Part shown: positions 1 through 61,062 of the stretch, in pieces
Position numbering within the stretch: position 1 is the stretch's first letter
Layout: the number at the start of each line of letters is the position of its first letter
Assembly: GCA_008973525.1 (NCBI GenBank)
Contig: WACJ01000515.1
Span: 2,480,001 to 2,544,000, forward strand
Length of the DNA: 64,000 nt
Direction: 5' to 3'
Origin: Stenopsyche tienmushanensis
Lineage: Eukaryota > Arthropoda > Insecta > Trichoptera > Stenopsychidae
Position numbers and translations under genes: made by a program
The notes under the pieces: generated by a model
Databases searched by the model: none
Told to the model about the DNA's origin: nothing
Seen by the model: only the letters and a program-made list of their open reading frames with translations

Positions 1-98
1 ATTCAGGGATTGCAAATCCTCAAAGAGATGATTACAATTTAAAACCTGAAGATGAGCAAAGAGTTATATATCTTTTCTCAAAATTATTCATTGGTTAA
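1..98 (+). CDS. Partial secreted amidated-peptide gene (subfamily A), exon 2 end
   Basis: The window opens inside the second exon of a small secreted-peptide gene. Reading from base 3, the frame gives the family pro-region (GIANP, then DDYNLKPEDEQR) and a hydrophobic tail VIYLFSKLFIG directly before a TAA at 96-98. The final Gly is the usual amide donor, and the Arg after the acidic PEDEQ stretch is a plausible processing site, so the product would be a short amidated peptide. The signal peptide and exon 1 lie outside the window. A poly(A) signal AATAAA is at 156-161. Function is inferred; no known family is recognised. Confidence 0.8.
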   Translation, partial: SGIANPQRDDYNLKPEDEQRVIYLFSKLFIG

Positions 99-103
99 AC
101 AGA

Positions 104-124
104 CATATATATATATATATATAT
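104..124. repeat. AT dinucleotide microsatellite
   Basis: An uninterrupted AT dinucleotide run lies just downstream of the first partial gene. It is probably a simple repeat with no coding role. Confidence 0.8.
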
Positions 125-159
125 TTAGTAATAAGTCATAATTTTGTATTTTTTTAATA

Positions 160-780
160 AAATGGGAAAAAAATCTATACTTCAATACAGATTTTCATTC
201 ATTTTCTTTCAATTTTTAAGATGCTTAATATTCCAATATCAATCTTCCACATACCAATAATATCCTGTTCCCTTTTTACATATGTCCTGATATTAATTCA
301 TATATTTATCGACTATATAACTTATCAGGTCCTTAAGGAGGGTAAACCCTTTACAGCGTTCGAAAATATCTTTTTTTTTTAATTACCTTTTGTATCTTTA
401 GTTTTATTATAAAAGATTTTCCTAAAAATATTTTAAACTAAATTATCGTTATATTGCACTCATATGTCTCTAACTGTAGGTATGCGAAATTATCGTTGCT
501 CGAAGTCAGCTCGAATTTGCTTGAAGTCACGGTTTAGCTCGATAGTTTGTCGTGTGTGGTTGAGTTTTCGAAGCAAAAACGTCAAAATATTTGAATAAAG
601 AACGAAATGCAGAAAAGTTCGAGGAGTTAAAAAAAGACATTATCTTAGGAACCCAACTGAAGTCAAAAGCCGGTACAAATGACAGTAAGCTATTGCTTTA
701 AAAAATATCCAAAGCTTGAAGATCTGACTCCATTTCTTGGTTAAGAGATAGAACAGCATCTCTTATCAAATTATAAAGAT
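160..780. other. Gene-free AT-rich stretch
   Basis: No gene is seen here. A TTAAGGAGGGTAAACCC sequence near 332 resembles the TTAA-flanked ends of the transposons described at 29.6 and 43.2 kb. It could be the left end of the element carrying the transposase remnant at 797-1143, but no matching right end was found. Confidence 0.3.
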
Positions 781-796
781 TTGTCCAGGAAAGAAT

Positions 797-2060: not shown

Positions 2061-2062
2061 TC

Positions 2063-2423
2063 TTAGCCTAGAAATATTTTCTTAAAAAATTTGATGAATC
2101 CTTGTGGGTCTTCAGGTTTGCCTTTGTAATTGTCACCGGGTTGAGGATTCATTATATCCGAATCATCTCTGGGGAAGCAATATGCTGCCACTATCAAGCA
2201 AAGTACAACGCAGACAACCTACAAATAATTAATACAATATAAAATATCTGTTATTGGATGTAGGCAATTTCCATCCTTTTTTTAGAGAAAAAGAAAGGAT
2301 TTTTTTTATAAGGAAGCAACCTTTATAATTAAGGTCCGGGAACTAGTCCAATATATCAGCACATGGTCAAAAATTGCTAAAACAATTAAACATAATACAA
2401 AGACATACCAATTGGATCTTCAT
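2063..2423 (-). CDS. Secreted amidated-peptide precursor A (tail GFIKFFKKIFLG)
   Basis: A two-exon gene: exon 1 2409-2423 (MKIQL), intron 190 bp with GT-AG ends, exon 2 2063-2218, 56 residues in all. Residues 1-20 form a signal peptide (VVCVVLCLIVAAYC core). Residues 21-44 are an acidic pro-region containing IMNP and NYKGKPEDPQ. The tail GFIKFFKKIFLG carries three Lys and ends in Gly, so after secretion it should become an amidated, positively charged amphipathic peptide. Unlike many relatives it has no basic residue just before the tail. A TATAAAAG box is at 2491-2499. A membrane-active role is inferred from composition only. Confidence 0.88.
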
Positions 2424-2499: not shown

Positions 2500-3580
2500 C
2501 TTGTACTAGTAAAGGTTTGTAGGCAAAGATAAACATTGTATGTTACCAAATAATGCCTTATTGCACATTAAGTTGTTGCATAATTGCATTTTTACAAATT
2601 TCTTGGTTGTTATAGAGGCTTTTCCAATGTTACAAATACTTTCACGCCTAATTTTCATACATTGCTGCTATTTACTTTCTTGCAATCTCTTCGCCGACGT
2701 TATGGTTCGTGTGAAGTTTCGTAAAAGCGATTTTTAAAATGCCAAATGGAATTGAAATAGATAAAGAATATCTTCATCTAATAAGGGTTATTTATTGATC
2801 AAAATGTTTATAATTATTTTAATGTCTATAACTTTAAAAACAAAACTTTTGTGAAGTTAGGACGTAAATATTTTTGAATTTCACTCGACATGAGTCGTCA
2901 TTGAGCTGCCATCGAATTGTCAATATTGAAAGATGTAAGTAGTTATGAGTAAGTTAAACATCATACTTTCTTATGTCATGTCTTATTAGCATATTAACGA
3001 TGGAAAAATATGATTGAAATAGAATAGTTCTTTACACAGTTGTAAGACATTGTTTCTCAATTCAATTTCAATTGTACGCTTTTGACTTGGTGATTATGTA
3101 TATATTTTTTGCTTTTATCTTAAGATCCATTTTAACTCTTTATGGACCGTCAACACATATGTTGTGTTTTTGTGAAAATTTTGTGTTTTTACTATGATTT
3201 TAATTAAACAAAATAATATTCATATGATAATGCGATTGCAATCGATGATATATAATATATTAACTTTATTTTTAATTTTTTTGCTGCTAGTCCTGTTAAA
3301 GTATCCAATCGAATAATAATTATAAGATCAATAACAACATGAAATTTAATCTTCCATTTGTGTAGTTTCATCAAAATATCACCAGATATTATATTAATTG
3401 TTACTAGTTACTTATTTCGGAAAAAGTTTGAGGAAAACGAATCGTCAAAACGCGGTTTTTGCACAATTGGAAATGATTTTGAAATTATTAAATGTGCTAT
3501 GTACTCGTATTTTTTGATCACAAATATTTCAAACACAATGTGTCATATTTACTCTAATAAAGATATTACTTAATATTTCA
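2500..3580. other. Gene-free stretch; right part belongs to a duplicated block
   Basis: No gene is seen from 2500 to 3283. From about 3284 the DNA is the upstream half of a block duplicated in direct orientation at 7634-8453 (see the repeat entry). Confidence 0.4.
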
Positions 3581-3591
3581 GTTGATGTCGG

Positions 3592-3600
3592 TATAAAATA
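3592..3600 (+). promoter_or_regulatory. TATA box of the 3667 gene
   Basis: TATAAAATA lies 67-75 bases upstream of the start codon, in a region preserved in the duplicate (7963-7971). The CTCCCAC element present at many relatives is not evident here. Confidence 0.7.
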
Positions 3601-3666
3601 TCCGACTTCATCTATCAGAAGCACAGTTCAAAGCATTCATTGCCCAGAATACCATAACATATCAAA

Positions 3667-3913
3667 ATGAAATCTATTCTGGTAAATATACTTATTTAAA
3701 TTGAAATATAATACTTATTTTATTATTGATTGCTAATTTATTGCATGCATTTTACAGATCTTGTGCGTTTTCTTGTGCTTGGCCGCGATGGTCCTTTGCG
3801 CCCCCAAGAACGACGCTGGGATTGCAAATCCTGGCAGTGAAGATTACAATCCAACCCCTGAAGAACAACAAAGAATCATTGGCTTCTTCAAAGGTCTATT
3901 ACTTGGAAAATAG
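3667..3913 (+). CDS. Secreted amidated-peptide precursor A (tail IIGFFKGLLLGK)
   Basis: Exon 1 3667-3681 encodes MKSIL; the intron is 76 bp with a pyrimidine tract and CAG acceptor; exon 2 is 3758-3913; 56 residues. The signal peptide core is ILCVFLCLAAMVLC, with cleavage expected just before or after Ala-20. The pro-region has DAGIANP and DYNPTPEEQQR. The tail IIGFFKGLLL is followed by Gly-Lys-stop: removal of Lys and conversion of Gly to an amide would give a 10-residue amphipathic peptide, if cleavage occurs after Arg-44. The poly(A) signal AATAAA is at 4055. Near-identical paralogues are at 7004, 8038, 10784 and 11722. Protein function is inferred. Confidence 0.92.
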
Positions 3914-4083
3914 GACATATTTATAAACACATTTAGTTCAATTTCCATATCACACTTTTTTTACAACTCTTGTTATATTTTTTACAAATTTTGTACTTAA
4001 ATCACATAAAATGGTTGTTATTGCGCTTCATGTTTATCTGCAATATTAATAATCAATAAAAAATATATTTATACATCATATTC

Positions 4084-4690
4084 ACTCATATTAATTATTT
4101 ATTAAAATTAAATTTCGAAGCATATAAAAGATCAATCGTCGCATATCCTATGCACTCTCAATAGCATTTAGATAATCGGAAATTATATAAAAGAACATTA
4201 AGAAAATATACTCCGCTTAAAATCAACATGACCAAATAGAAGATGATCATTTATGTAATTAAACATTGACCAATAGAAGCTCTGTCGTTCGAGAGAAAGC
4301 AAGACGTGAAATCCATTCTTGGTCAAAATTTTAAGCTCATGTAAATAAGTAAAATATATATTAATTGTTTACATTATCATCATGTTAATTTAAAAAATTC
4401 AGTAGAATTAGAATACATTTTTTCCTATTTATAGGTTTACCAGACTTTGGATCATTAATATTGTATATTGATTAATGCAGATAAGTTTTATATATTAACA
4501 CGACATTTTATATAGTGAATCTCATTGGAACTCTATAATATATATATCATGAATAAGTAAAACAAGTTAACCCATTCCGTACCGAGAATTACTATTTTTT
4601 ACCGAGAAAGCGTTAGTGTTACTTAAATATTGTTTTTTTTTATGCTTGAAGAAATTCAAACTCTAATACATAGTTGTTTAACAAATTAAT
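4084..4690. other. Gene-free stretch with a possible decayed exon 1
   Basis: Around 4305-4325 the sequence GTGAAATCCATTCTTGGTCA resembles the ATGAAATCTATTCTGGTAAA exon 1 and donor of subfamily A, with the ATG and donor damaged. No second exon follows. The rest is AT-rich and featureless. Confidence 0.3.
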
Positions 4691-6216: not shown

Positions 6217-6435
6217 TCATCCGAAGAAAATGTCATTTGCCATTACATCCAAAAATCCTTGATCTTTTAGCGTTTTTAAGCTGTTGGTAAATGCTTCTGG
6301 AGCTGCAACTGGTGCACTAAAGACCATCGATGTCAGACAAAGAAGGAGGCACAAAATCTGTTGAAATAATGCAATATTAAGACAATATAAATTGGTATAA
6401 TTTTTAATATTAATACTTACTAAAAGGATTTTCAT
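6217..6435 (-). CDS. Divergent secreted peptide of the family (tail DIFFG, no NP/YN pro-region)
   Basis: Exon 1 6421-6435 (MKILL), a 63-bp intron (the shortest in the set), exon 2 6217-6357, 51 residues. The leader ILCLLLCLTSMVFSA clearly belongs to subfamily A, but what follows (PVAAPEAFTNSLKTLKDQ...) lacks the IANP and DYNxKP blocks found in the others. The protein ends DIFFG-stop, so the Gly amidation signal is kept. It may be a gene whose secreted part was replaced or evolved quickly while the leader and promoter stayed. A TATATAAAT box is at 6514-6522, and CTTCTTAC followed (on the plus strand) by GTGGGAG at about 6541 gives the shared upstream element. Confidence 0.85.
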   Translation of the reverse strand: MKILLVSINIKNYTNLYCLNIALFQQILCLLLCLTSMVFSAPVAAPEAFTNSLKTLKDQGFLDVMANDIFFG

Positions 6436-7003: not shown

Positions 7004-7250
7004 CTATTTTCCAAGTAATAAGCCTTTGATGAAACCAATGATCCTTTGTTGTTCTTCAGGGGTTGGATTGTAATCTTCACTGCCAGGATTTGCAATGCCA
7101 GCATCATTCTTGGGGGCGCAAAGGACCATCGCGGCCAAGCACAAGAAAACGCACAAGATCTGTAAAATGCATGCAATAAATTAGTAATCAATAATAAAAT
7201 ATGTATTATATTTCAATTTAAATAAGCATATTTACCAGGAAAGATTTCAT
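7004..7250 (-). CDS. Secreted amidated-peptide precursor A (tail IIGFIKGLLLGK)
   Basis: Exon 1 7236-7250 (MKSFL), intron 76 bp, exon 2 7004-7159, 56 residues. It differs from the 3667 product at only a few positions: Phe for Ile in the five-codon exon 1, and Ile for Phe in the tail. The leader, the APKNDAGIANP start of the pro-region and the PTPEEQQR stretch before the tail are the same. It points opposite to the 3667 and 8038 copies, so this stretch contains an inverted duplicate. The amidation signal GK is intact. Confidence 0.92.
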
Positions 7251-7358: not shown

Positions 7359-7633
7359 GTGACACATTGACAATTTCATTTCAAATGTAATATTAAAAAC
7401 AAATATACAATTTTATCGCGAAATATCGTTTTGCAAGCGAAAAATATACTTTCGAATATGAAAATATTTTTTTCGGTATACTTAATTTATATATGAACAA
7501 GCTTAAATTTATTATCTTATATATAATATTAATTATGACTTAAACTTATATCAGGTCTCATAAAACACATCAAGAATGATAGTATGAAGGCAATTGTATG
7601 TAATATATTCCACTTCTGCGTTATTTCCATTTT

Positions 7634-8453
7634 TTTTGCTACTAGTCCTGTTGAAGCATCCAATCGAATAACAATCATAAGATCAATAACAACATGATAT
7701 TTAATATTCCATTTGTGTAATTTCATCAAAATATCAATAGATATTATATTAATTGTTATTAGTTACTTGTTTCGGAAAAACTTTAAGGAAAACGAATCGT
7801 CAAAACGCCGTATTTGCACAATTGGAAAATATTTTGTAATTCAATAAGTCTGAAATTATTAAATGTGCTATGTACTCGTATTTTTTGATCACAAATATTT
7901 CAAACACAATGTGTCATATTTACTCTAATAAAGATATTACTTAATATTTCAGTTAATGTCGGTATAAAATATCCGACTTCATCTATCAGAAGCACAGTTC
8001 AAAGCATTCATTGCCCAGAATACCATAACATAACAAAATGAAATCTTTTCTGGTAAATATGCTTATTTAAATTGAAATATAATACTTATTTTATTATTGA
8101 TTGCTAATTTATTGCATGCATTTTCCAGATCTTGTGCGTTTTCTTGTGCTTGGCCGCGATGGTCCTTTGCGCCCCCAAGAATGACGCTGGGATTGCAAAT
8201 CCTGGCAGTGAAGATTACAATCCAACCCCTGAAGAACAACAAAGAATCATTGGCTTCTTCAAAGGTCTATTACTTGGAAAATAGGACATATTTATAAACA
8301 CATTTAGTTTAATTTCCATATCACACTTTTTTTACAACTCTTGTTATATTTTTTACAAATTTTGTACTTAAATCACATAAAATGGTTGTTAATGCGCTTC
8401 ATGTTTATCTGCAATATTAATAATCAATAAAAAACATCTTTATACATCATATA
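7634..8453 (+). repeat. Direct segmental duplication, copy 2 (partner 3284-4082)
   Basis: A second copy of the block described at 3284-4082, including promoter, both exons, intron and the polyadenylation region. Confidence 0.85.
8038..8284 (+). CDS. Secreted amidated-peptide precursor A (tail IIGFFKGLLLGK)
   Basis: Exon 1 8038-8052 (MKSFL), intron 76 bp, exon 2 8129-8284, 56 residues. The exon 2 protein is identical to that of the 3667 gene; only residue 4 (Phe for Ile) differs. TATAAAATA is at 7963-7971 and AATAAA lies near 8425. Two genes with the same predicted mature peptide suggest either very recent duplication or homogenisation by conversion. Confidence 0.92.
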
Positions 8454-8454
8454 C

Positions 8455-10430
8455 AATATTTGTCTATTTAACGTATAATCTAATGAATCCTGATCGATCT
8501 AATGAAATTTCGAATAACATTTGTAATGAAGTGGATCCAATTGATGATATTTACTTAAAATTCACAAAAATATTTTTTTCTTGAATTTGGTCTAAAGAGA
8601 AAATATAACCTGTAGAAATGAAAAAACCTACCACTGCCCGGGTGTTGGCTTTGTCTAATAAGCTAACAAAATATGTAGTTGTAATATGTTGCATAACATG
8701 CGAAATATTAGGTCATGAAAACGCAAGTAGACGGTTGAGACTTGCCTGCCAAATATTATGCTTGATTTTCAGAAATAATATCTATTATAGGAATAGAACG
8801 TTATAACTCTAACTTGTAAAAATGCAGTAAATATACGTGTAATAAAAAAGAGCAATTTGTAAACAACGGTGTGATTGCTAAAATGGATTGGAGTTGATAA
8901 CATTTGGTCTGATGGAACCTGTATATCATTGAGCTATTTTTTCTTTGATCAAGGTAGATAAATATGTTAATATATATAGTACATATCATCCTATTCTATA
9001 TATTTTATATCAATATAACAAAGTTTTGGAATATATATGTAGGAAATTTTATTTCCATGATGATCATGACGTTCAAAACCGTTTAAAGACGTCAACTTTC
9101 TGTAAATAAAGTGATAGAAACAACAAATTTTCTATAAACTTTAATTGTATTACCAATGTAAGATATTATCAATAAGTTTTTAAAGATTTCATGGAACACA
9201 TTATCCAGATTGATTATTATATTCAATTTTTTAGAACTTATCTAAATCCTGTTAATGAAGATTTAGAGATGAATACTTCAATCATTTTTCTAGTTTCAGT
9301 TATAAATAGAAATGCATTGTCTACTATGAATACAAAATTGTTAAGAAAGAGAAGATTAATAATTAAGTAGGCGATATCCATGAAAAAAAAATCTAGGTTT
9401 TCTTTCGTTAAGTTAAGATTGTTTATTTTTATGTGGAAAGGAATCTATCAATGAATCATTGTTAATAAATCACTTTACAAACACCCTTAGCATTAGCGTT
9501 TACATATTCAAGAAATCAGGATAAATCTGGATTGAGATGATCGAACGATCATATTGATTTTATAGTTCCGATCTCTTTAAATTTGTTGTTCGGTAATTTT
9601 ATTTTAAATCAAGATTTGAACCCAAACCTTTATACTAAGAGTTCAAGATCTAAATCACTATATCAAAAATTGGTCTTAGTCCAGCAAGGATAATTAAATT
9701 TATAACATAAATACAGGCGGGTCTCGACTTTCGCCTATTCTACTTTTGCACAACTCGCTATTTCGCACATTTCTAAAAAACATTTTTTTTTATCAATAAT
9801 GCAAAGAAATTTTTGTTTCCATGCAGAAAATCAATATTGTATTTCGTTTTCCAAATAGCAATTGGTTCATACATCTCATGCACCAAGCAGTGATAGCTAC
9901 ATTTAAACAATAATGAATTAGGTTATCAAAGCAGTTGGCAGTAGTGTTTCGATTATCGAGAATTTCTCGATAAATATGCAAATTCGAATGTTTAAAATAC
10001 TGCATCACTTTTGAGTGCGTTTCTGCCAAAATTAATTCTGTTTGAAAGGTTTTTTTAGGGCTCTGGTTATGACAAAAAAATGTTTAGATACATCCTAAAC
10101 TTATTTTTCCCGCCATTAAAATATTCATGTTTCTCGAGCATTTTCAGAAATTAAATCGAGAATTCTCATTTCTCGGGTAATGAAAATCATCAAGAAATCA
10201 GAATCCCTAGTTGACAGGGAAAGCGGAGCTACAATACGAGATTTTTGGAAGAACTATAATATAGGGAACTTAATAAACAATATTGGAGACTCATGGGGTG
10301 AAATAAGAGTCAACAATGAAAAGTTCCTAAAATTAATTACGCCCAAAATTTATGAATGATTTTATGCATTCTGATGAAGGTCCCATAGATTAAAAATTAA
10401 CATAATGAATTAACTAAACTTTCATTAATT
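8455..10430. other. Long gene-free stretch with a possible DNA-transposon end
   Basis: No gene is supported. At 9715-9775 the sequence CAGGCGGGTCTCGACTTTCG and the following CGCTATTTCGCAC resemble the ends of pogo/Tigger-type elements; no second end was found. Short ORFs here have no recognisable features. Confidence 0.35.
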
Positions 10431-10783: not shown

Positions 10784-11030
10784 CTATTTTCCAAGTAATA
10801 AGCCTTTGATGAAGCCAATGATTCTCTGCTGTTCTTCAGGGGTTGGATTGTAATCTTCACTACCAGGATTTGCAATTCCAGCGTCGTTCTTGGGGGCGCA
10901 AAGGACCATCGCGGCCAAGCACAAGAAAACGCATAAGATCTGTAAAATATATGCAATACATTAGCAATCAATAATAAAATAAGTATTATATTTCAATTTA
11001 AATGAGCATATTTACCAGGAAAGATTTCAT
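10784..11030 (-). CDS. Secreted amidated-peptide precursor A (tail IIGFIKGLLLGK)
   Basis: Exon 1 11016-11030 (MKSFL), intron 76 bp, exon 2 10784-10939, 56 residues. The predicted protein equals that of the 7004 gene, and the flanks 10661-11105 align with 6885-7320, so the two are direct duplicates on the same strand. The TATATAAT box is at 11098-11105 and the CTCCC element (plus-strand CGGGAGGTG) at 11133-11141. The GK amidation signal is intact. Confidence 0.92.
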
Positions 11031-11721: not shown

Positions 11722-11966
11722 ATGAAATCTTTATTGGTATTGTTTAATAAATATAAATAATACATTTGTATTTATAGTATAAATATTAATTATTTTTTTT
11801 AAATTTCCAGATGTTATGCTGTTTCTTATGCTTAGCCGCGATGGTCTTTTGCATTCCCAAGAACGATGCTGGCATTGCAAATCCTGGCAGTGAAGATTAC
11901 AATCCAACCCCTGAAGAACAACAAAGAATCATTGGCTTCATTAAAGGCTTATTACTTGGAAAATAG
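11722..11966 (+). CDS. Secreted amidated-peptide precursor A (tail IIGFIKGLLLGK)
   Basis: Exon 1 11722-11736 (MKSLL), intron 74 bp, exon 2 11811-11966, 56 residues. The leader has changed (MLCCFLCLAAMVFC, then Ile in place of Ala-20), but the pro-region and tail match the 7004 and 10784 products residue for residue. The leader therefore differs while the secreted part stays constant, the opposite of the 6217 gene. It is head to head with the 10784 gene. Confidence 0.9.
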
Positions 11967-14095: not shown

Positions 14096-14350
14096 TTATT
14101 TTCCCAAAAAGAGCCCCTTGAGGAAACCGAGAATTTTTTGTTGATCTTCAGGCGTGGGGTTGTAATCCTCACCACCGGGATTGGCAATACCTGCGTCGTT
14201 CTTAGGGGCGCAATAGACCATCGCGAACAAGCACAAAAATACGCAAAAGATCTGCAAAACAACAACAAAAATTAGATAAACAATGTCATAAAATATTCAA
14301 AAAAATAACGACATAAAAATCAAGAAATAACTTACTAGTACAGATTTCAT
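14096..14350 (-). CDS. Secreted amidated-peptide precursor A (tail ILGFLKGLFLGK)
   Basis: Exon 1 14336-14350 (MKSVL), intron 84 bp, exon 2 14096-14251, 56 residues. It diverges moderately from the near-identical group: leader IFCVFLCLFAMVYC, pro-region with NPGGEDYNPTPEDQQK, and a tail ILGFLKGLFLGK with conservative hydrophobic swaps. Lys replaces Arg before the tail, so a basic processing site is kept. The TATATAAAA box is at 14421-14429, with GATGGGAGGTGAG on the plus strand at 14455-14467. Confidence 0.9.
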
Positions 14351-16159: not shown

Positions 16160-16459
16160 CTATTTTCCAATGAAAGGAATGAAGGGAATGAAGAAGCCTT
16201 TGTCGTCCCCATTCTTCGGGTTATAGTTTTGAAGCTGAGGATTTGCAACGCCGGAGTCATCCAATGGTGCGCCGAAGACTACCATCGCCATGACAAATAA
16301 TACGCACACAATCTGCAATCAAATTTTGACACTAAGTTCATCTTAAAAATAATATAAAACGCGATAAAAGGCGTTGTGCATCATATATTACACCAACGGA
16401 TATCAATACTTTAATGCTAGAAAATGAAATAATGTATAGATTACCAATAGGCACTTCAT
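16160..16459 (-). CDS. Secreted peptide precursor A with proline-containing tail (GFFIPFIPFIGK)
   Basis: Exon 1 16445-16459 (MKCLL), intron 132 bp, exon 2 16160-16312, 55 residues. The leader core is IVCVLFVMAMVVFG. The pro-region begins APLDDSGVANP and has NYNPKNGDDK before the tail. The tail GFFIPFIPFIGK has an FIP-FIP repeat and no internal basic residue, quite unlike the Lys-containing helical tails. Amidation via GK is still predicted. The TATATAAGG box is at 16529-16537. A degraded copy of this promoter and exon 1 lies at about 22500-22870. Confidence 0.88.
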
Positions 16460-17094: not shown

Positions 17095-17530
17095 ACTTTT
17101 AGGTAATGAACCTTCTAAGCAAAGCGCCATAGCGGCGTGGCAGTCCCGATGGGACAACTTAGCTAAATGTCGGTGGAAGCTCGAGCTAATATCGAACCTG
17201 AAAACCTGGGTAGTCAGAAAGCATGGTCGACTGTGCTACTACTTGACCCAGATCCTCACCGGGCACGGCTGTTTTGGTAGCTACCTACACAAAATAGGCA
17301 AAGAGACCGACTCGGAGTGACACCACTGTGGAGCGGAGTACGACGATACTGTACACACGACATTTGTCTGCCCAGCATAGAGCACCGAAAGGAACATCCT
17401 ACGGGAGGAGCTGGGAATCAGTTTGCTTTCCTTACCTCTAATGTTAACAGATGCTCGGGCATGGAATGTGTGGTGCAAATACACGACGTGCGCTATGCAG
17501 CAAAAGGAGGACGACGAACAATAGTAACAT
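17095..17530 (+). pseudogene. LINE ORF2 C-terminal end (R1-like), broken
   Basis: The plus strand encodes the end of a non-LTR retrotransposon ORF2: a WQSRWDNLAKCRW block, a YYLTQILTGHGCFGSYLHKIG block, then an HHCG...HTTFVCP zinc-binding region as in R1/I-type elements. Two in-frame stops (TGA at about 17317 where a Cys is expected, TAG at about 17377 where a Trp is expected) show decay. The region is clearly GC-richer than its surroundings, as expected for an inserted element. Confidence 0.75.
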
Positions 17531-17534
17531 ACTC

Positions 17535-17788
17535 TTAACAGATTTAGCTCACATGGCTAAGAATTGCTCTAACCCTGATCGCTCCACGGCAATGCCGCAG
17601 ATGTGGCAAAGCAAGACACAAGGCAGCTGCCTGCATGAAGGACCCCTGCTGCCACATATGCAAAGAGAAGGGAACCAAAGCAGACCACTTCATGGGTTCA
17701 AAAGAGTGCCCTACACAAAGAGAAGCATTGAAACGGTTAAGAAATGGCAACCGTTTTACAAATTAATTTGTAGATCGATCTGTTTTAC
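17535..17788 (+). pseudogene. LINE ORF1 zinc-knuckle fragment
   Basis: One plus-strand frame contains CRRCGKARHKAAAC, a perfect C-x2-C-x4-H-x4-C knuckle, followed by a second Cys/His cluster (CHICKEKGTKADH...C) and a basic end, then a stop. This is the C-terminal end of a LINE gag-like ORF1. It lies downstream of ORF2 sequence, the reverse of normal element order, so two partial copies are joined or one is rearranged. Confidence 0.75.
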
Positions 17789-17829
17789 TAGAATGACATC
17801 CAGAAAGAGACAAACGGAAGACCCGTGAG

Positions 17830-19193: not shown

Positions 19194-19438
19194 CTATTTT
19201 CCTATGATGGGAAGTCCAAAAACCAAAAATATTTTTTTATCATCTTCAGGTTTCGCATTGTAATCTTGACCATGGGGGTTGGCAATTCCAGAGTCGTCCA
19301 AAGGGGCGCTGAAGACCAACACGGCCAAGCACAAGAATACGCATAAGATCTGCAAATCGTGGATTTATTTTTAGCAATCAGCGTCATAAGGTTCATAAAT
19401 TTATAAATTAACTAAATACTCACTAGTATAGATTTCAT
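19194..19438 (-). CDS. Secreted amidated-peptide precursor A (tail IFLVFGLPIIGK)
   Basis: Exon 1 19424-19438 (MKSIL), intron 74 bp, exon 2 19194-19349, 56 residues. Leader ILCVFLCLAVLVFS, pro-region APLDDSGIANP and DYNAKPEDDKK, tail IFLVFGLPIIGK. The pair of Lys before the tail makes a dibasic processing site. The tail has an LP break and no internal charge, so the amidated product would be very hydrophobic. The TATAAAAGC box is at 19501-19509. Confidence 0.9.
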
Positions 19439-19857: not shown

Positions 19858-20217
19858 CTATTTTCCAATAAGTAGCACGAAAAGATTTTTATTATCCTCG
19901 GGTTTCGTATTATAGTCCTGTGTAGCTTTAGGGTTCGCTATGCCGGAGTCATCCAAGGGTGCACAAAAGGCCATCATCGTCAAGAACAAGAATACATATA
20001 AAATCTGAAAATAATATAAAACAAATTGAAATTTGCAAGCACATTCCATAAACGTTGAAACCCAGATCCCCTTTGATACACGGATAACAGTTGCACACTG
20101 ACATTTAATGTGGTAGATTACTCTTCGTTTGACAATTAATTCACCCAAATCGATGAATTAATTTGCCTAATAAATATGTTATAAATCATTTAAATAACTC
20201 ACCATTAAGGTCTTCAT
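19858..20217 (-). CDS. Secreted peptide precursor A, shortest tail (NLFVLLIGK)
   Basis: Exon 1 20203-20217 (MKTLM), intron 198 bp, exon 2 19858-20004, 53 residues. Leader ILYVFLFLTMMAFC, pro-region APLDDSGIANP, then DYNTKPEDNK before the tail NLFVLLIGK. The shorter tail leaves only about seven residues if cleavage follows the Lys and the Gly becomes an amide. The TATATAAAT box is at 20290-20298. A longer open frame reading into the intron is a shadow, because the donor GTGAGT and acceptor TTTCAG are both good. Confidence 0.88.
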
Positions 20218-37150: not shown

Positions 37151-37154
37151 TCAG

Positions 37155-41633: not shown

Positions 41634-41916
41634 TTAACCGAAAAGTAATTTCCAGAGGATCAAAAAGTTTTTCTTGTCATCGAGCTTTGGGTTGTAGTTT
41701 TGATGGACTTCTGGATTCGACACTTCATTGTCGCCTTTTGGCAAGCAGCAAACCACTACGATAAGATACAGGAAGAAGAACGAAAGCTGAAAAATAAAAA
41801 TAATTTAGTCATCATATATATTTTGAATGAATATAATTTGGAAGATTACATTCTAGATTGTTTATTGAATGACATTAATAAAATTATGAAACATCACTTA
41901 CAATTTTGAAGTTCAT
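41634..41916 (-). CDS. Secreted amidated-peptide precursor B (tail NFLILWKLLFG), array unit 3
   Basis: Exon 1 41902-41916 (MNFKI), intron 115 bp, exon 2 41634-41786, 55 residues. The protein is identical to unit 1, with several silent changes. The open frame running across this region on the plus strand is a shadow. The TATATAAG box is at 41993-42000, with plus-strand GAGTGGGGGAG at 42022. Confidence 0.92.
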
Positions 41917-44113: not shown

Positions 44114-44183
44114 CATACTACATATTTTTGTAGCATATTTTCTTCTTTCTTTTCTTATCTTCTCATATCTTCATATCACTTGT

Positions 44184-44285
44184 CTTAAGGTTTTGGGTGA
44201 TAATTTTGTTGGGGTTCTGAATTTCATACCGATGAATGTCATGTTCTGGCAAGCAGTAGATTGTAATAATGGAGCAGGGAAACTC
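44184..44285 (-). pseudogene. Decayed exon 2 of a subfamily B gene
   Basis: The minus strand resembles the middle of the 49546 gene (leader end, LPEx pro-region, YHxKxxD stretch), but with frame shifts, loss of the tail and no exon 1. It abuts the right end of the TTAA element, which may have disrupted or followed the gene. Confidence 0.55.
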
Positions 44286-44620
44286 ATATGAAAATCTTGT
44301 TTCCTTCGTAATAATACTTGTTATTAATTCAAAGAGGAATCAGAAATATCAATTTTAAGATTGTCCAAATTATATTTTACAATCTGGGTTTGAATCGAAA
44401 CCTTTGCCATAAAAGATTAATTACTTGACTATATAAACATAATTTGGTATAAGAATTTCCAAGTGTTAAATTTCCAATAAGGTATTTTTATTAACAACAA
44501 CAAAATATTTTTAGTGTTTTTTATACATAAATATTTTTTTTACAAGCATTTTCTAAAATTTGATTTTTTTATGTGAATTTTATGTTTATGTTGAATTGTA
44601 TCTAAGTTCGGGAGAATCAT

Positions 44621-44903
44621 TTAGCCGAAGAGTAATTTCCAGAGGATCAAAAAGTTTTTCTTGTCATCAAGCTTTGGGTTGTAGTTTTGGTGGACTTCTG
44701 GATTTGACACTTCATTGTCGCCTTTTGGTAAGCAGCAAACCACTACGATAAGATACAGGAAGAAGAACGAAAGCTGAAAAATATAAATAATTTAGCCATT
44801 ATATATATTTTGAATGAATATAATTTGGAAAATTACATTCTAGATTGTTTATTGAGTGACATTAATAAAATTATAAAACATCACTTACAATTTTGAAGTT
44901 CAT
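44621..44903 (-). CDS. Secreted amidated-peptide precursor B (tail NFLILWKLLFG), array unit 4
   Basis: Exon 1 44889-44903 (MNFKI), intron 115 bp, exon 2 44621-44773, 55 residues. The protein is identical to units 1 and 3. The final Gly codon is GGC here rather than GGT, and the flanks match unit 3 closely, down to the intron length. TATATAAG is at 44975-44982, plus-strand GAGTGGG at 45004. Confidence 0.92.
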
Positions 44904-45049: not shown

Positions 45050-46130
45050 TTTAAAAAAATTATAATTCAAGGATTCATTGTGTCAAATTCAATTCCATCT
45101 GCATTTGATATTGACATATTATTCTGCCAAACTACCGTGTTAATGTATTCAAAAAAGTAGGAAAACGACATTGTTTTTTAATCAGCTGATTCTTTAAATT
45201 CTTAATTTATTTATTCTGTGGACAATGTTGTTTAGCTAATGATTTTAGAAGCATTTCTCATACATAAAGTACTATTCATTATAAAATTAAAAAATCAGAA
45301 TAATTGTGCATACCGGCATTAAATTAAAATATAAAAATCTGCTCTTTTGTCTACAAGTAGTTTATGTTTATTAGTGTTTAGAAAACGTCGTTCACTTTCG
45401 ATTCAAGAAGGCTAAAGCTTCGATGGACGTTACTAAAGTTGTAGCACGGAAACTTGATTGAAATATTGCAACTTTCAAAGCATTGCAATATTAAATACAA
45501 ATTATATTTATTATATTATATTTAGTTAGATATCAGACAATTATATAATATTTACTTACAGGTCTCAAATATTGTTATAAATATCGGCAACAATATTCGG
45601 CAACAACTACCGTTTTGTTTACTTAACATATCAAAAGAACAAAATGAGAAAAAAATAGCTTTGTAGGAATAATTATACGAATAATATCGCTGCCGCCCAT
45701 ATTATATTTTTCTGTCGTTTAAAAGATCGATAAACGAAAATTAAGATTAAGCGTCGGGTCTTGATATAAATTAAATTCTTGTTCTTCAAAAATAGTTGAA
45801 ATAGATTTGTTGATAAAATTTAATACTTTAGGAGGGATATTTTTTTCTTTCATGGTAAAAACGCAATTGATGTTTTTTGATATAATAATTAGCATGTAGA
45901 ACAGAAGAATATTTCAATAAGACTCTAATCTTGGGATATGATTTTTTTATTTTTAGATCGGAGAGAAACTTTGAATAAGTGGCAAAATATATTTATGTTT
46001 CAATTACTTTACAAGTTCATCACAAGACCAATCCTCTTTATTAATTGTCTCAGAATTTACTATTTCAGAAGCAAAATATGGATCGAGATAATACATTTGC
46101 AATATTAAAGAGCACAAAACAAATATTTTA
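45050..46130. other. Array spacer, gene-free
   Basis: No gene. The first 150 bases follow the shared spacer pattern; the rest is AT-rich. Confidence 0.45.
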
Positions 46131-46136
46131 TTCGAC

Positions 46137-46345
46137 ATGAATTTTAAAATTATTAGTAGTTTTATGGACTTCATCGAATACAGAAGCGTTCTATTCAAAT
46201 TTTATCTCTTCGAATGATGGTATATGATATTAACTATATATTTTAAACTGTCGAATCCAGAAGCCAAACTAAACTACAATACAAAACCTCAAGAATGAAA
46301 TTTCTTTTTCGGGAAATTATTCTTCCGAATTTTGAAATTATTTTA
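46137..46345 (+). pseudogene. Decayed subfamily B gene with partial exon 1 and exon 2
   Basis: Exon 1 (46137-46151, MNFKI) is intact, but the donor GT is changed to AT. About 95 bases on, sequence for SNPEA and NYNTKPQE follows, with no signal-peptide half of exon 2. A premature TGA, loss of the tail Trp and an altered final Gly with no stop complete the decay. The pattern suggests a deletion of the intron end and leader, followed by drift. Confidence 0.75.
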
Positions 46346-47251: not shown

Positions 47252-47544
47252 TTAGCCGAAGAGTAATTTCCAGAGGATCAAAAAGTTTTTCTTGTCATCA
47301 ATCTTTGGGTTGTAGTTTTGGTGGACTTCTGGATTTGACACCTCATTATCACCTTTCGGAAAACAGCAAACCACTACGATGAAATACAGGAAGAAGAATG
47401 AAAGCTGAAAAATAAAAATAATATAAATTTTTATATGATTTGAATGAATATAAATAAGATGATTTCATTCTAAATTATTTAAATAGTTCAATATTAATGA
47501 GGTTAATACAATTATGATACATCACTTACAATTTTGAAGTTCAT
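47252..47544 (-). CDS. Secreted amidated-peptide precursor B (tail NFLILWKLLFG), array unit 5
   Basis: Exon 1 47530-47544 (MNFKI), intron 125 bp, exon 2 47252-47404, 55 residues. It differs from unit 1 by Phe for Leu at two leader positions and Ile for Leu in the PKIDDKK stretch; the tail is unchanged. TATATAAG is at 47616-47623, with plus-strand GAGTGGGAGAG at 47645. It is the last unit of the near-identical series. Confidence 0.92.
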
Positions 47545-49545: not shown

Positions 49546-49788
49546 TTATCCGAGGAATATTTTCCAGAAAAATATATTTCTATCGTCTTGAGGTTTTGTG
49601 TGATAATTTTGTTGGTGGAGTTCCGAATTCGATACTACGTTGTCACCTTCTGGTAGGCAGTAAATTGTAACAATGAGGCAGAGGAAGAAAAACGCAAGCT
49701 GAAAGACAAATACATTAACAATTTCATATACATTTTATTAAACATAAGCATACAAAATATTGCAATTGCTCACAAATTTGAAGTTCAT
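49546..49788 (-). CDS. Secreted amidated-peptide precursor B (tail NIFFWKIFLG)
   Basis: Exon 1 49774-49788 (MNFKF), intron 75 bp, exon 2 49546-49698, 55 residues. Leader LAFFFLCLIVTIYC, pro-region LPEGDNVVSNSELHQQ (Ser replaces the usual Pro of the NP motif), NYHTKPQDDR, tail NIFFWKIFLG. TATATAAG is at 49858-49865, with plus-strand AGAGTGGGAG at 49881. It is head to head with the 50540 gene, about 750 bases between start codons. Confidence 0.9.
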
Positions 49789-50539: not shown

Positions 50540-50784
50540 ATGAATTTCAAAATTGTAAGTAATTTTTATGGAGTTTTATCGAATAATTCTTAATTAACTG
50601 TATGTAATATTATTTATATATTTCAATATTTTAGCTTTCATTGTTCTTCCTCTACCTCATCGTGGTGATTTATTGCTTGCCAATTCCTAACAATGAAGTA
50701 TCAAATCCAGAAGCCCAACAAAACTACAACTCTAAACCTCAAGATGAGAGAAATATATTTTTCTGGAAAATATTCTTGGGATAA
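50540..50784 (+). CDS. Secreted amidated-peptide precursor B (tail NIFFWKIFLG)
   Basis: Exon 1 50540-50554 (MNFKI), intron 80 bp, exon 2 50635-50784, 54 residues. Leader LSLFFLYLIVVIYC, pro-region LPIPNNEVSNP then NYNSKPQDER, tail NIFFWKIFLG, the same as its divergent neighbour despite different pro-regions. Cleavage after Arg would give a nine-residue amidated peptide with one Lys. Confidence 0.92.
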
Positions 50785-50879: not shown

Positions 50880-51430
50880 TATAATAGAAAATTCATAATT
50901 GCATATATTTTGCACATCCTCAATTAAAATATCGCAATCAAATATTCAAAAAATGTAAGATATAGTTTATATTTATTTATGTAATTTAATTTTTTGACAA
51001 AATTAATAAAAATATTATTGTTACATTCAATATGTTAAAGGATGAGTGCCAATTTAGGATCTTTGATAAGGCTCCGAGAGTCTGTATATAGTATGTCCGA
51101 ATTGAGATTTTTTGAAGGCTTTAAGGTTTCGTTTTTGGTCTAGCACATTTTAGACTATTTTATTTCATTTTCAATAATCTTAACCATTTTTCTTCTTAAT
51201 GTGCTATATCCATTAGAGGAAGTTGGAAATCTTCAAATGAGATCTTTTTTTAAATGGAGATTTTATATTTCTTTCCAAAAATGGTTATTTTAGGATATGA
51301 TTATCTGAATGAAGGGCAAAATTATGATTATTTTTTAAATCATAATTATTATAAATATTATTGACTTAGATTTATTCAGAAACAAGAAAACAGTGAAAGC
51401 CTGGATTGAGGCAATCGATCAAAAATATGT
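50880..51430. other. Gene-free stretch
   Basis: AT-rich DNA, nothing supportable. Confidence 0.45.
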
Positions 51431-51442
51431 ACAGTGAAACTT

Positions 51443-51565
51443 TTATATAAAGAATAATTTTCAGAGGAACAATATATTGCTCGTCTTCATGTCTTGGGTT
51501 ATAGTTTTGATGAATTTCTGGATTTATCACAACATTGTCACATTTTGGCAAGCAGCAGATGCTTA
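51443..51565 (-). pseudogene. Decayed exon 2 of a subfamily B gene
   Basis: The minus strand keeps an LPKCDNVVINPEIHQNYNP-like pro-region, but a lost base shifts the frame in the tail, the Trp-Lys core is gone and no stop follows the expected Gly. No exon 1 was found upstream. It lies directly downstream of the 51680 gene. Confidence 0.7.
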
Positions 51566-51679
51566 TGATAAGCTAGATGAATCTTCCAATAAAACAACGT
51601 TATTTTTATTCAAACGAGTTTATATTTTCAAAACTGCACACGCTTCGTTTCAATCGAATACATTCGATTCAATTCAAAT

Positions 51680-51932
51680 TTAACCCCAAAACAATATTTT
51701 TTTCAGTCTATATATAATGAAATTTTGTTCATCCTGTGGCTTGATATTGTATTCCTGGACTCCTAACGGATTAGATATAACAGAATCATCTGCAGCACTA
51801 CACATCATTACTGCTACATACAATACAAGGACAAAGATCTGCAAAAGATTAAAAATATATTTATACAGAAGCATATTGAATAAAATAAATTCTAAATACC
51901 AATCTTTGCTAATTTACCATTTGAGCCCTCAT
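51680..51932 (-). CDS. Secreted amidated-peptide precursor, A-like (tail IIYRLKKILFWG)
   Basis: Exon 1 51918-51932 (MRAQM), intron 79 bp, exon 2 51680-51838, 57 residues. The leader IFVLVLYVAVMMCSA and the AADDSVISNP start are of subfamily A type though the gene sits among B genes. The pro-region goes on EYNIKPQDEQ and the tail NFIIYRLKKILFWG has one Arg and two Lys and ends in Trp-Gly. There is no basic site before the tail. TATAAAAC is at 52012-52019 (minus), with plus-strand GGAGGGAGTC at 52036, as at the 59550 gene. Confidence 0.88.
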
Positions 51933-53300: not shown

Positions 53301-53319
53301 ATTCACACAAAAACGTTTA

Positions 53320-53510
53320 GGATACCATTAATGAATCATTGATTAATGTATCCTTTAAATATTACTTGTAAGAGGGTTTATAAGATTATAAATAAAATTT
53401 GGACGAACATATTTTTAACTGTCTTTATTAACGAATAAATATTTTTTTGTAAGAGTTTTCCAAAATTTTAATTTTTAAGCCAATTTTAGATGAGATGAAT
53501 CATTTAACCC
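53320..53510 (-). repeat. Inverted copy of 33890-34075 (3' flank of a B gene)
   Basis: The reverse complement matches the 3' flank of the 33357 gene, including the run to AATCAATGATTCATTAATGG. Together with the near-identical coding parts this shows that the 53504 and 33357 genes are inverted duplicates about 20 kb apart. Confidence 0.8.
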
Positions 53511-53862
53511 AAGAGTAATTTCCAGAGGAAGAAAATATTTCTTTCGTCTTCAGGTTTTGGGTTGTAGTTTTCTTGAACTTCTGGATTTGTCACAACATTG
53601 TCACCTTCTGGTAAGCAGTAGATGACTACGATGAAGTAGAGGAAGAAGAATGAAAGCTGAAATATTCAATAATATATTCAATATTAGATGATAAATGGTT
53701 TTTTTTAGATAATTCATAAACAATTAGTTCACAATTAAGTATTGTAGATTTTTAGTTATAATCTATTCAAAATAAGAGCCCAATAACTTAAGAAGAATGT
53801 GCCATTGCTAAATCAAATGCATTTCAAATATGATAGGAAATACTCACAATTTTGAAATTCAT
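53504..53862 (-). CDS. Secreted amidated-peptide precursor B (tail NIFFLWKLLLG)
   Basis: Exon 1 53848-53862 (MNFKI), intron 191 bp, exon 2 53504-53656, 55 residues. Leader LSFFFLYFIVVIYC, pro-region LPEGDNVVTNP then NYNPKPEDER, tail NIFFLWKLLLG. It is closest to the 33357 gene; Leu replaces Phe before the final Gly. TATATAAG is at 53934-53941, with plus-strand AAGAGTGGGAGA at 53961. Confidence 0.92.
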
Positions 53863-56170: not shown

Positions 56171-56176
56171 TGATAT

Positions 56177-56589: not shown

Positions 56590-57118
56590 TTATAACACAT
56601 TTCGCTTTCTACGCTCGGTATCATCTGCGTAGAGAGTGATCGAGTCAAGAGGGTGAATTGATTTAAGGATATCACTAGTGTATAGTGAAAATAGAAGGGG
56701 AGCAAGAATGGAGCTTTGGGGGACACCAGCAGATATGGGTCGAGGATCGGAAACGATATTGGAGACTTTGGCTCGGAAGGAACGATCAGAAAGGTTGGCG
56801 ACGTCGAGGAAAACGATATCCGTACAGCTCTTCATCTCAAAGCCCCCGTGAATAATCTCCGTTACACGAAGGAGTTGATGGACTGAGAAGTGAGCTCTTC
56901 GAAATCCGAATTGCTCCGGAGGAAGGACGTTGAGAAAATTGTTATCCACCTCAAGTCGAGAAAGAATTATGGCTTCGAGAAGTGTGCCTAAAATGGGGAT
57001 AAGGCTAATTGGACGATAGGATGTGGGATCGGAGCCGCTAGTATGAGGTTTACGAATAAAAATTGAATTAGCGGTCTTCCATTTTAAAGGGGATTGAGCA
57101 AAATTCAAAACTGCGCAC
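56590..57118 (-). pseudogene. LINE reverse transcriptase fragment (Jockey-like), internal deletion
   Basis: The minus strand encodes the N-terminal half of a non-LTR reverse transcriptase: IFIRKP, PTSYRPISLIPILGTLLEAI, PPEQFGFRRAHFSVHQLLR, IVFLDVA, then SAGVPQSSILAPLLFSLYTS and a YADD catalytic box. The FLDVA block is joined to a downstream segment with the intervening palm region missing, which shows an internal deletion. GC content is higher than in the flanks. Confidence 0.85.
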
Positions 57119-57160
57119 AGCCATGAGAAAGCAAGGATCTACTCAGGTCATGATTTGGGT
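57119..57160. repeat. Dispersed repeat with TCAGGTCATGATTT core, copy 2
   Basis: CATGAGAAAGCAAGGATCTA followed by CTCAGGTCATGATTTGG adjoins the 5' side of the LINE fragment. Related to 30811-30870 and 63500-63560. Confidence 0.5.
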
Positions 57161-57179
57161 TTGGGTTCAGTCACGTCAT

Positions 57180-59540
57180 ATTTAAACGTATGTTTTTATC
57201 AGTTTTTCAACTATTCCGTAATATTTGTAGAAGACATTATTTATCAATGATCCTAGAATCTTACTCTAATTTATTACCATTGAACGAGGAATGTTGGATT
57301 TTTTTTGGTTTGCAGTCATCTGAAGTCGTCTAGCCGGTAACGTTGGACAATATTGCAGCCTCAAATATTTTTTATTGAGACATTCAAAGTCATCCCATTG
57401 TCGACATCTTTGAAAATCGTCATCTTCGGGTCAAGGTGAAATCTGTTTTTTTATAGTGCTTTGTCATCTAAAAAAACATGTTTTTTTTAAATAATTTTTC
57501 AACGCATTTGATGTGCATTTTTCTTGAACAATTCCACAATGTTATAGTTTGTATTCAAACAGGTTGAAATGAAATTGCTAATGTATTAATAATGTATTTA
57601 TGAACAGACTCAGAGCGTCTTCCAAGGATTTAATAATTATGTAGATAAGAACCTTCCTTGCTTAAATATCAACACCATTGTTACTATGCTAAAAAGTAGA
57701 TTCCAAAAGGATTCATGGTATTCATGAAATCAAAGTGTATTTTAAATACCAACTAATAATATCGTGTCATTTACATTTCATACAAGTTTCGGATAATCGA
57801 ATGTCTACTATGCGTAATTTGTTTGCAGCCTCTTGACAGTTGCTCAATAGCTTCTAAATTGGTTTTGTTAATACTTCATTATCATTATTTCCGAAAGCGA
57901 TTTACACTATTATTGTGTAATATGACCTTAATATAACGACATGCCATATGCTCACTAAAATGCGTCAAACGGTAAGATGTTACTTCTTAGAAAACACATT
58001 TTACGACTTAAAAATCGATACTTTGAGAAGATCGATGCTATGAAAAGACATCGTGACCTTAATTGTTACGTGACTTTTTTTAAAGTTCATATTATTAACA
58101 AAAATATTGATAGGAAATGCTAAAAAGTACAAAAAAACCCAAAAGTAATCCAAAACTTTTATTTTGAAGGCACTATTGTCTGATAATCGATTTTAAAATA
58201 TTTTTTTAAATTAATACTTATTTTTTATAATGCAAAAAACTTTGATTAACATTAAATTTAGTCAAATATATTTATGAAATAGTTAACACCATTTTGCAAA
58301 AAATTTCACAAAAACACCATCTGTGATTTAACTGTATAATTTTTTTTGTAAAAAAAACAATATTCGAATTGTGATTTTATCTCCTTTTTTTAATTCTGCA
58401 GACATCTATACCCCAAAATAATAACATCTATGCATTTCAGTACAGCAATGTTTAAAACCTGTAACAAAACTGTGCTTTTTTTGTAAAATTTTATAAAATA
58501 CATATATAATATTTTCCTTTTTTTAAATAAAAATAATAAGACAATACAATAAAAATTTTAAGAATCATTTCCAGGGTTAAATTTTTTTAATATAATTTTT
58601 TTTATAAAATATTACTTAAAAACGCCACAATTTAGAAAGTCTTAAAATATTTTTTAACTATTTCAATGGAATAACTGGATTGAATATCCAATGTTTATAA
58701 GTCGATATTCGACCAATAAAAGATTGCTAAGCGATACTATAACGTGCATTTTACAAACATACGGAAAGACTTCATTATACTGCGTATTTCATGAAGATAC
58801 TATTTGTATTTCATAAATTGAAATATTTACAGACTAATAATTTGGCATATAAATAACGTATCTGAAATAAATCTTTAAAATTTGCCTAAACAGAAAAAAG
58901 TAGACAAGCTAAATAAAGGCTACCGTTGTAATAGCCACATAAGTTAACTATAATATATTATAAGTTTATTGGTATAAATAATAACGATAGGTTTTTTATG
59001 ATAATAAATTAACATTTCATTCATTTTGTTAAAAGAACCATCATTTTGTACGAAAAAATGTCTTTGTATAAATGCAAATAATGTGCTTAAAAATTACAAA
59101 CATTTTATAAATTCATACATATTTTAAATAGCATTCAAGTTTTAAGGGGCTCGATAATAAGTTTGCAGAATTAACGGACACCGTCAATAATATATTTGAC
59201 GATCATATTGTGAATATTTATTATTCAAGTTTTTCTATATTTAAATATTCATGAGTTGTTTTTTTTTTAGTTTCCTTATAATCAAAAAGTCCACTATAAC
59301 GTCATAACGAGGATTTGTTGAATAATAGACGTGCATTTTTATGTTATCATTATTTATTCATGTTGTACTCTCCACATATAATAATTAAAAACGATCATAT
59401 TCAGTCATAAATATATGTTATCATCAAAAGAACTCTTTGAATGAGGCTTAAAATTTACTTAAAAAAATAAACACTTTCCTTTGAAAGCTTAACACACTAA
59501 TTGGAAATCATGTTTCAATGCAAATTGCATTTTTAGCGTT
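57180..59540. other. Long gene-free stretch
   Basis: About 2.3 kb of very AT-rich DNA with many T and A runs. No gene, RNA or transposon signature can be supported. Confidence 0.45.
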
Positions 59541-59549
59541 GTTTTATAT

Positions 59550-61062
59550 TTATCCAAATAGTAATAATTTCTTTAAAAGTAATTTCTTAATCAAGAAATC
59601 TTGTTCGTCCTGAGGTTTGTAGTTGTATTCGTCGGCCAATTGGGGATTTGAGATTTCAGCGTCGTTGTGAGGTGCGCAGAGAACCACCGCAGCCAAGCAC
59701 AGGGCGACCAAGAAGATCTATTATGTAATTAAGGAAAAATTTGATATAAATAAACACAATAGTTATTTAGATCTTTTTTTTTATAATGAATGATATTAAA
59801 GGTGAGCAAAATCAAAAACAAGCATAAAAAGTTGTACCTCAACATTAATATCTCATTTTAATGCCCAAGAATAAATCTAACGAGGAACAGAATCATCACA
59901 GTATCAGATAAATTAATTGATCAAATTTATTCAAATACAAATATTTAAGATCCGAGAATTATCATAGTGATATTGAAAATTTCACTTGCATTTATGCATA
60001 TCAATTTGATAACTGTGTTAATTTAACAAGCAATTTAGAAATTGTTTTATTGAATTTATACAAATATGTATCTCTATGATTGATGTTTAAAATTTCATTC
60101 ATAAATTCTTAATGTTTTTGGTGAATAAATTATTTTAAAAATCAGATTTGCACTCGTTTAAAATATCATACAATTTTCAATGAAAATATCATTAGGCTCT
60201 TAAATTATCAGCCTTTATTAAATAGCAACATCATTAATGCAAATTTAAAGCACAATAAAATAATGTATGTAAAAACATTGATGATATATTTATTTGAATA
60301 CGTTGAATTCAAATGTTGTAAAATGTACGCTGGATCAAGCACTCAATTCATACAAAATTTTGTTTATTCTGTTAAATATTTAATCTATTCTAATAATTCA
60401 TATACCGATTGATTGCTTTATATATGTGTGATCAAATAAAAATGGCAAATTGTTAACGGACATGTTGAAATTTTATTTTAGCATTTTAAACGTTATATGA
60501 AAGACGGTCGTTGTATAAGTATTTGTGCACTATTTTCAATGTAATATCTAATTATATTCTAAAATATTTAAATTGAATTTGTTAGATGATTTAAGCTAAT
60601 AATTATCCAAATTTTAATTTTAATCATTTGGTCGCTCAAATCAAATTTGTATTATTAGTTGAAGAATTATCAAGTATTTTTTACAAAGAATTTTTTACAA
60701 AGCAATTTTTTAGCTTATATGTTTCTAAATTTTAAATATAAAAAAACCTCTTTTAAATCCAAATTTCACATTTAGGCAAATACATATATTATGCTTTAAA
60801 ATGATTATAATATTGATGGTCTATTAAATTTAAAAGGTCTTTAACTATTTTCCTGGAGGAGCACTATATATAAAAAATACTATAAAAATTCCTTAATAAA
60901 TTCACGTTTTATAAATGTTTAATATTTTCAATAATGGATTTAATGTCACCGAATTAAAAATTATATAATCAAGTATATGAATTATTTGCTTAGTGCTAAA
61001 CATAAAAAATGGATTTTATTATAAATATATAAGTAAAAATCACTCACCAATTGGAATTTCAT
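59550..61062 (-). CDS. Secreted amidated-peptide precursor A, most Lys-rich tail
   Basis: Exon 2 59550-59717 encodes a leader IFLVALCLAAVVLC, pro-region APHNDAEISNP and EYNYKPQDEQ, and a tail FLIKKLLLKKLLLFG before TAA. The tail has Lys pairs with helical spacing and ends in Gly, so it is the strongest candidate for an amidated cationic helix. The best exon 1 is 61048-61062 (MKFQL, donor GTGAGT), giving a 1330-bp intron and 60 residues, with TATATAAG at 61130-61137. A damaged exon-1-like sequence at about 59830-59855 has a stop after three codons. The exon pairing is the weakest in the set. Confidence 0.78.

Follow-up and report, generated by a model that had tools for sequence, protein, structure and literature searches.

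Several families of small secreted peptides bear comparison with the locus described here, a 60-kb cluster of 27 tiny two-exon genes in the genome of Stenopsyche tienmushanensis (Trichoptera, Stenopsychidae; GenBank assembly GCA_008973525.1, contig WACJ01000515.1, positions 2,480,001 to 2,544,000 of the forward strand), this stretch of 64,000 nucleotides being referred to below as the window. Of these genes, 26 are canonical and one, g04, diverges from them downstream of the leader. We put at about one half the probability that the 27 genes yield secreted precursors from which an amidated, hydrophobic C-terminal peptide of approximately 8-14 residues would be released, together making up a membrane-active mixture of a defensive or venom-like kind.

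One example of a similar precursor is presented by the vespid mastoparans, in which a leader and an anionic pro-sequence precede one short, hydrophobic and cationic C-terminal peptide whose terminal Gly is amidated (PMC9263278). In the mastoparans, the pro-sequence is a series of dipeptides, most with Pro or Ala at their end, on which a dipeptidyl peptidase acts (PMC9263278), whereas the pro-regions of the cluster, read directly, carry an NP..YN..acidic motif and no dipeptide runs. The C-terminal Gly after a short cationic hydrophobic peptide is found here too, as Gly or Gly-Lys, in all 26 canonical copies. Another example is the frog temporin precursors (temporin-FL, PMC8560897), which share with the cluster a signal peptide, an acidic spacer and a Gly-Lys amidation signal, the peptide being 13 residues long, hydrophobic and weakly cationic. 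Temporins, however, are vertebrate peptides whose precursors are cut at Lys-Arg (PMC8560897), while in the cluster the acidic spacer is present but its boundary lacks Lys-Arg, and 16 of the 26 copies end in Gly alone. The Bomanins of Drosophila are likewise tiny, secreted, partly amidated peptides encoded by clustered, lineage-restricted genes, a family of twelve with most members in one cluster, but they carry a 16-residue motif with CXXC (PMC4411088), and none of the 26 canonical copies has a Cys downstream of the leader. The abaecin-like and navitripenicin genes of Nasonia (PMC2853521) also encode small secreted peptides and possess a conserved phase-0 intron and, in the case of navitripenicin, an acidic propeptide; the mature part is rich in Pro in abaecin, and cationic and rich in Gly in navitripenicin, with cleavage at a dibasic site, while the tails in the cluster are short and hydrophobic, neither Pro- nor Gly-rich. 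The intron is alike in phase. Similarly, hymenoptaecin (PMC2853521, PMC3415428) has a propeptide that is acidic and one intron only, in phase 0, but its mature peptide is Gly-rich, which the tails here are not, and its intron follows codon 39 in Camponotus, as opposed to codon 5 in the cluster. As to the dibasic site looked for in amidated neuropeptides, Lys-Lys is found at the presumed boundary in 7 of the 26 copies. By analogy, the precursor layout matches that of the amidated membrane-active peptides of wasps and frogs; as a defining feature of each is missing here, the cluster is assigned to none of the mastoparans, temporins or Bomanins.

Gene family, splice design and promoters

The family was recovered by a six-frame regular-expression scan of the window, followed by a profile search. 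Among the 2,941 open reading frames of at least 15 amino acids, 28 scored at an expectation value (E) of 1.2e-12 or lower, representing the copy truncated at the window edge (3-98), the degenerate copy at 51372-51572 and 26 intact exon 2s. Seventeen of the intact ones served to build the profile (alignment A2) and thus match it by construction; the remaining nine, being close copies of profile members, reach similar scores of 77.6-89.2 bits. Two relics of exon 2 also fall below E 0.01 (listed below). The gene g04 possesses the family exon 1 form, the TATA box and the leader, without the NP..YN pro-region (profile E = 0.044). Its pro-region and tail are different ones, with Gly still terminal, and it may represent a paralogue that has diverged or a swap that placed another body behind the common leader. 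The cluster is real, far beyond chance, and the count of the original prediction, at least 27 intact genes plus one partial, holds if g04 is included (26 canonical genes, g04 and the edge copy). A possible further relic, resembling the FWKxFLG tail, lies at 37131-37346 (-), its profile match being non-significant (E = 1.3).

The splice design proposed originally, of five codons in exon 1 and a phase-0 intron, is predicted in all 27 genes: exon 1 consists of ATG plus four codons and is followed by a GT donor and a phase-0 AG acceptor. Exon 2 is 46-55 codons long, and the predicted introns measure 63-1,330 bases, with 132 bases or fewer in 20 of the 27. A single candidate for exon 1 was present in 15 genes, and in the other 12 the choice was made by distance, TATA box and likeness. 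The exon boundaries in the following list are splice predictions from the sequence.

g01, 3-98 (+): exon 2 only, 5' part cut by the window start
g02, 2063-2423 (-): exon 1 2423-2409, exon 2 2218-2063
g03, 3667-3913 (+): exon 1 3667-3681, exon 2 3758-3913
g04, 6217-6435 (-): divergent member; exon 1 6435-6421, exon 2 6357-6217
g05, 7004-7250 (-): exon 1 7250-7236, exon 2 7159-7004
g06, 8038-8284 (+): exon 1 8038-8052, exon 2 8129-8284
g07, 10784-11030 (-): exon 1 11030-11016, exon 2 10939-10784
g08, 11722-11966 (+): exon 1 11722-11736, exon 2 11811-11966
g09, 14096-14350 (-): exon 1 14350-14336, exon 2 14251-14096
g10, 16160-16459 (-): exon 1 16459-16445, exon 2 16312-16160
g11, 19194-19438 (-): exon 1 19438-19424, exon 2 19349-19194
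g12, 19858-20217 (-): exon 1 20217-20203, exon 2 20004-19858
g13, 23081-23331 (-): exon 1 23331-23317, exon 2 23236-23081
g14, 24065-24441 (-): exon 1 24441-24427, exon 2 24217-24065; no TATA box at the usual position
g15, 27072-27916 (-): exon 1 27916-27902, exon 2 27236-27072; intron of 665 bases
g16, 29175-29456 (+): exon 1 29175-29189, exon 2 29304-29456
g17, 33357-33893 (+): exon 1 33357-33371, exon 2 33741-33893
g18, 35690-35982 (-): exon 1 35982-35968, exon 2 35842-35690
g19, 37765-38058 (+): exon 1 37765-37779, exon 2 37909-38058
g20, 39835-40133 (-): exon 1 40133-40119, exon 2 39987-39835
g21, 41634-41916 (-): exon 1 41916-41902, exon 2 41786-41634
g22, 44621-44903 (-): exon 1 44903-44889, exon 2 44773-44621
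g23, 47252-47544 (-): exon 1 47544-47530, exon 2 47404-47252
g24, 49546-49788 (-): exon 1 49788-49774, exon 2 49698-49546
g25, 50540-50784 (+): exon 1 50540-50554, exon 2 50635-50784
g26, 51372-51572 (-): degenerate exon 2 (E = 9.5e-14), own exon 1 and promoter not found, an unrelated reading in place of the tail
g27, 51680-51932 (-): exon 1 51932-51918, exon 2 51838-51680
g28, 53504-53862 (-): exon 1 53862-53848, exon 2 53656-53504
g29, 59550-61062 (-): exon 1 61062-61048, exon 2 59717-59550; intron of 1,330 bases
Relic, 46108-46295 (+): possible decayed promoter 46108-46159 (E = 0.065), then broken exon 2 46218-46295 (E = 2.8e-4)
Relic of exon 2, 44166-44339 (-): profile E = 7.5e-3

The pattern ATG-five codons-GT(A/G) occurs at 63 sites in the window, of which 27 belong to the family. 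A TATA box starting 90-58 bases upstream of the ATG is present at 26 of the 27 family sites versus 5 of the 36 other sites, a count not fully independent of the choice of exon 1, because the TATA box helped to pick the candidates. Three profiles of promoter plus exon 1 were built from these same 27 promoters, recovery of which is thus by construction, and over the window they detected no non-family promoter below the inclusion threshold. The weak non-family matches are limited to the possible promoter just before the relic exon 2 at 46218-46295 and to 34072-34105 (E = 0.7). The promoter of g29 is weakly detected by profiles of other subfamilies (E = 4.4e-5 and 1.3e-4), and such cross-detection between subfamily profiles points to common descent of the promoters. 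In addition, a CCC-rich element occurs 93-115 bases upstream of the ATG in 17 of the 27 genes versus 6.7% of random 60-base windows, and this sharing is partly accounted for by common descent. This element, of the CTCCC(A/C) type, lies approximately 30 bases before the TATA box, for example in the genes at 41916 (-) and 50540 (+).

Precursor anatomy, selection and duplication

The acidic pro-region and short hydrophobic tail described originally are both borne out, with net charges of -3 to -6 for the pro-region and of +1 to +4 for the tail side chains in all 26 canonical copies, the tail being defined, arbitrarily, as all residues past the final Asp or Glu, so that a negative tail charge is excluded by construction. 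The pro-region pattern proposed then, (I/V)xNPxxxxYNxKPxDE, is looser than stated: [IV]xNP and YN are each present in 24 of the 26 copies and Tyr in all 26, but YNxKP in only 11. An addition to the earlier description is the C-terminus itself, which is Gly in 16 copies and Gly-Lys in 10. The codon for the terminal Gly varies silently (GGT, GGA, GGC), while the Gly is invariant in canonical copies, and its constancy, while the Lys comes and goes, matches what amidation would require. The 26 canonical genes encode 17 distinct tails, with WKLLF-G, WKIFL-G and GLPxI-GK forming recognizable groups.

Comparisons among close copies speak for real proteins. In the six recent copies (g16, g18, g20-g23), pairwise mismatches by codon position are 14/750 (1.9%), 5/750 (0.7%) and 143/750 (19.1%), with 357/1717 (20.8%) in introns, so that third positions are intron-like and the first and second nearly fixed, and therefore these are coding genes under selection. 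For g03 and g05-g07, the respective mismatches, in small numbers, are 8/306, 0/306 and 34/306, compared to 24/456 (5.3%) in introns and 95/585 (16.2%) in the downstream flank, third positions in this case exceeding the intron. The pooled Nei-Gojobori ratios of nonsynonymous to synonymous substitution rates (dN/dS) are 0.21 for the leader, 0.21 for the pro-region and 0.31 for the tail, in 53 pairs chosen for moderate silent divergence, and as these pairs are non-independent, the figures are descriptions and not tests. The six copies have kept one identical tail despite a 19% difference at their third codon positions. The original prediction had read the variable tails as a mark of rapid effector evolution, which the data do not support: the tail ratio is only slightly above that of the rest of the precursor, speaking for a tail not under rapid diversifying change, although single sites may be positively selected. 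Chance or a repeat artefact as the source of the family is ruled out by the codon-position bias and the TATA controls.

Growth of the family by local duplication is well supported, in agreement with the expansion originally suggested. Duplicated blocks of at least 200 bases surround the genes in both orientations, at 65-94% identity. Examples are 3266-4084 versus 7621-8455 (94%) and 33721-34092 versus 53307-53678 (91%), and blocks near 35.5, 39.7, 41.5, 44.4 and 47.1 kb are mutually 74-84% identical.

Relatives and neighboring elements

The original prediction did not recognize the family, and the searches agree. No significant match was found in Pfam (lowest E with a family exon 2, 0.077), in NCBIfam (lowest E 0.068) or in PDB. 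Against 5.8 billion proteins, an alignment query returned 107 candidates, all with E above 1, and a single-member query returned zero. Twelve tail and pro-region strings were absent from open-licence paper texts, a set without most subscription journals, and no described family fitted by title and start of abstract among the literature matches listed. As a control, the reverse transcriptase remnant in the window finds 117 protein relatives, a few of them named from insects and a spider; the collection therefore includes some arthropod entries, with short arthropod genes probably under-represented. A viral or bacterial origin was considered and set aside, with no relative found in prokaryote contigs (one member as query) or viral contigs (two members as queries), the only scans made.

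The window has a G+C content of approximately 29%, and a search with Rfam found no RNA genes at gathering scores. Remnants of mobile elements sit between the genes: a broken mariner-type transposase at 20870-22032 (-), with a Pfam match to HTH_48 (Mos1; E = 6.8e-14) in 21319-22032, and a reverse transcriptase fragment at 56590-57138 (-) (RVT_1, E = 2.7e-14), whose best-matching relative with a name comes from an aphid and which we take to derive from a retrotransposon without long terminal repeats. Together with the G+C content and the mostly short predicted introns, these two remnants are in keeping with an arthropod, probably insect, genome. The stretch 17448-17828 (+), with no Pfam match, looks like part of a zinc-knuckle gag from an R1-like retrotransposon. 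A transposon-encoded family was rejected, as no member matches a transposon model.

Possible function of the peptides

That the products are secreted and processed is well supported by the predicted leader, the acidic pro-region and the conserved terminal Gly. The leader, made up of the five exon 1 residues and approximately 15 of exon 2, would direct the precursor into the secretory pathway, and the acidic stretch would neutralize the tail and keep it harmless in transit. A protease may then cut near the last acidic residue, often right after a Lys or Arg, the terminal Lys, where present, would be trimmed off, and peptidylglycine-amidating enzymes would convert the Gly to an amide. The released peptide may act on membranes, whether of microbes, of prey or of attackers. 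Bulk expression in a gland or immune tissue would be in line with the TATA promoters and the short mRNA; the repetition of one conserved tail in many copies would increase the dose, and the other tails would make the mixture broader. For the exon 2 of g14, a low-confidence predicted model (mean predicted local distance difference test score 75, predicted template modeling score 0.34) places helices at 2-13 (leader), 20-23 and 34-49 (tail), lending weak support to a helical tail.

A number of points weigh against this reading. A classic amphipathic helix, which is a trait of the mastoparan family, is not clearly supported for the tails by the hydrophobic moment, with z of -1.2 to +1.8 relative to shuffles and no clear excess in any of the 26. 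In g10-g13 the sole tail charge is the Lys adjoining the presumed cut. The cleavage signature is not uniform, Lys-Lys being limited to the seven copies mentioned above and Gln occupying, in g02, g27 and g29, the position where others have Lys or Arg. A kappa-B immune promoter site is not demonstrated, the CTCCC element having been compared only by eye with known kappa-B forms. Finally, the conservation of the tails also fits receptor ligands.

The last point leads to amidated signaling peptides, similar to neuropeptides, pheromones or seminal-fluid peptides, that would bind a receptor and not membranes. Their case is built on the C-terminal amidation signal and on the purifying selection that strongly conserves the tail groups, yet 27 genes with 17 distinct tails, an acidic pro-region, one peptide per precursor and a dibasic cleavage site not common to all members count against them, and signaling peptides are seldom expanded to such gene numbers; we consider them unlikely, but the main rival. 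It is rather unlikely, too, that the genes belong to a family of arthropod venom or immune peptides described before, and missed since databases cover short arthropod genes poorly. The handful of arthropod names among the relatives of the reverse transcriptase remnant, the layout common with mastoparans (PMC9263278) and the terminal amidation common with several Bomanins (PMC4411088) would be in keeping with this possibility, but the protein, family, structure and text searches detailed above all speak against it. A third proposal, that the whole mature protein is the product, with the tail never released and the NP..Y core active, appears very improbable. While the tail is less conserved than the rest of the precursor, Tyr is invariant and the cleavage site varies, all as this proposal would have it, every canonical copy joins an acidic pro-region to a hydrophobic cationic tail (subject to the definition of the tail given above), and the terminal Gly or Gly-Lys best suits a short amidated product, even if an uncut protein might itself be amidated.

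In conclusion, beside the reading of a membrane-active amidated mixture, we see an even chance that the cluster represents an undescribed, lineage-specific arthropod system, in which one promoter design would serve 27 genes over 60 kb, encoding at least 17 amidated, Cys-free peptides that range from strongly cationic to near-uncharged and hydrophobic, their tails under purifying selection, with g04 as a member with a different body. Gene finders easily overlook genes of this size whose first exon has five codons, and thus clusters of this kind may be common without having been noticed. Provided that the peptides are produced, they would constitute a natural library of short amidated molecules in which the relatedness of the many tails is known, and would allow testing whether effector mixtures persist by purifying selection on each component as opposed to rapid change.

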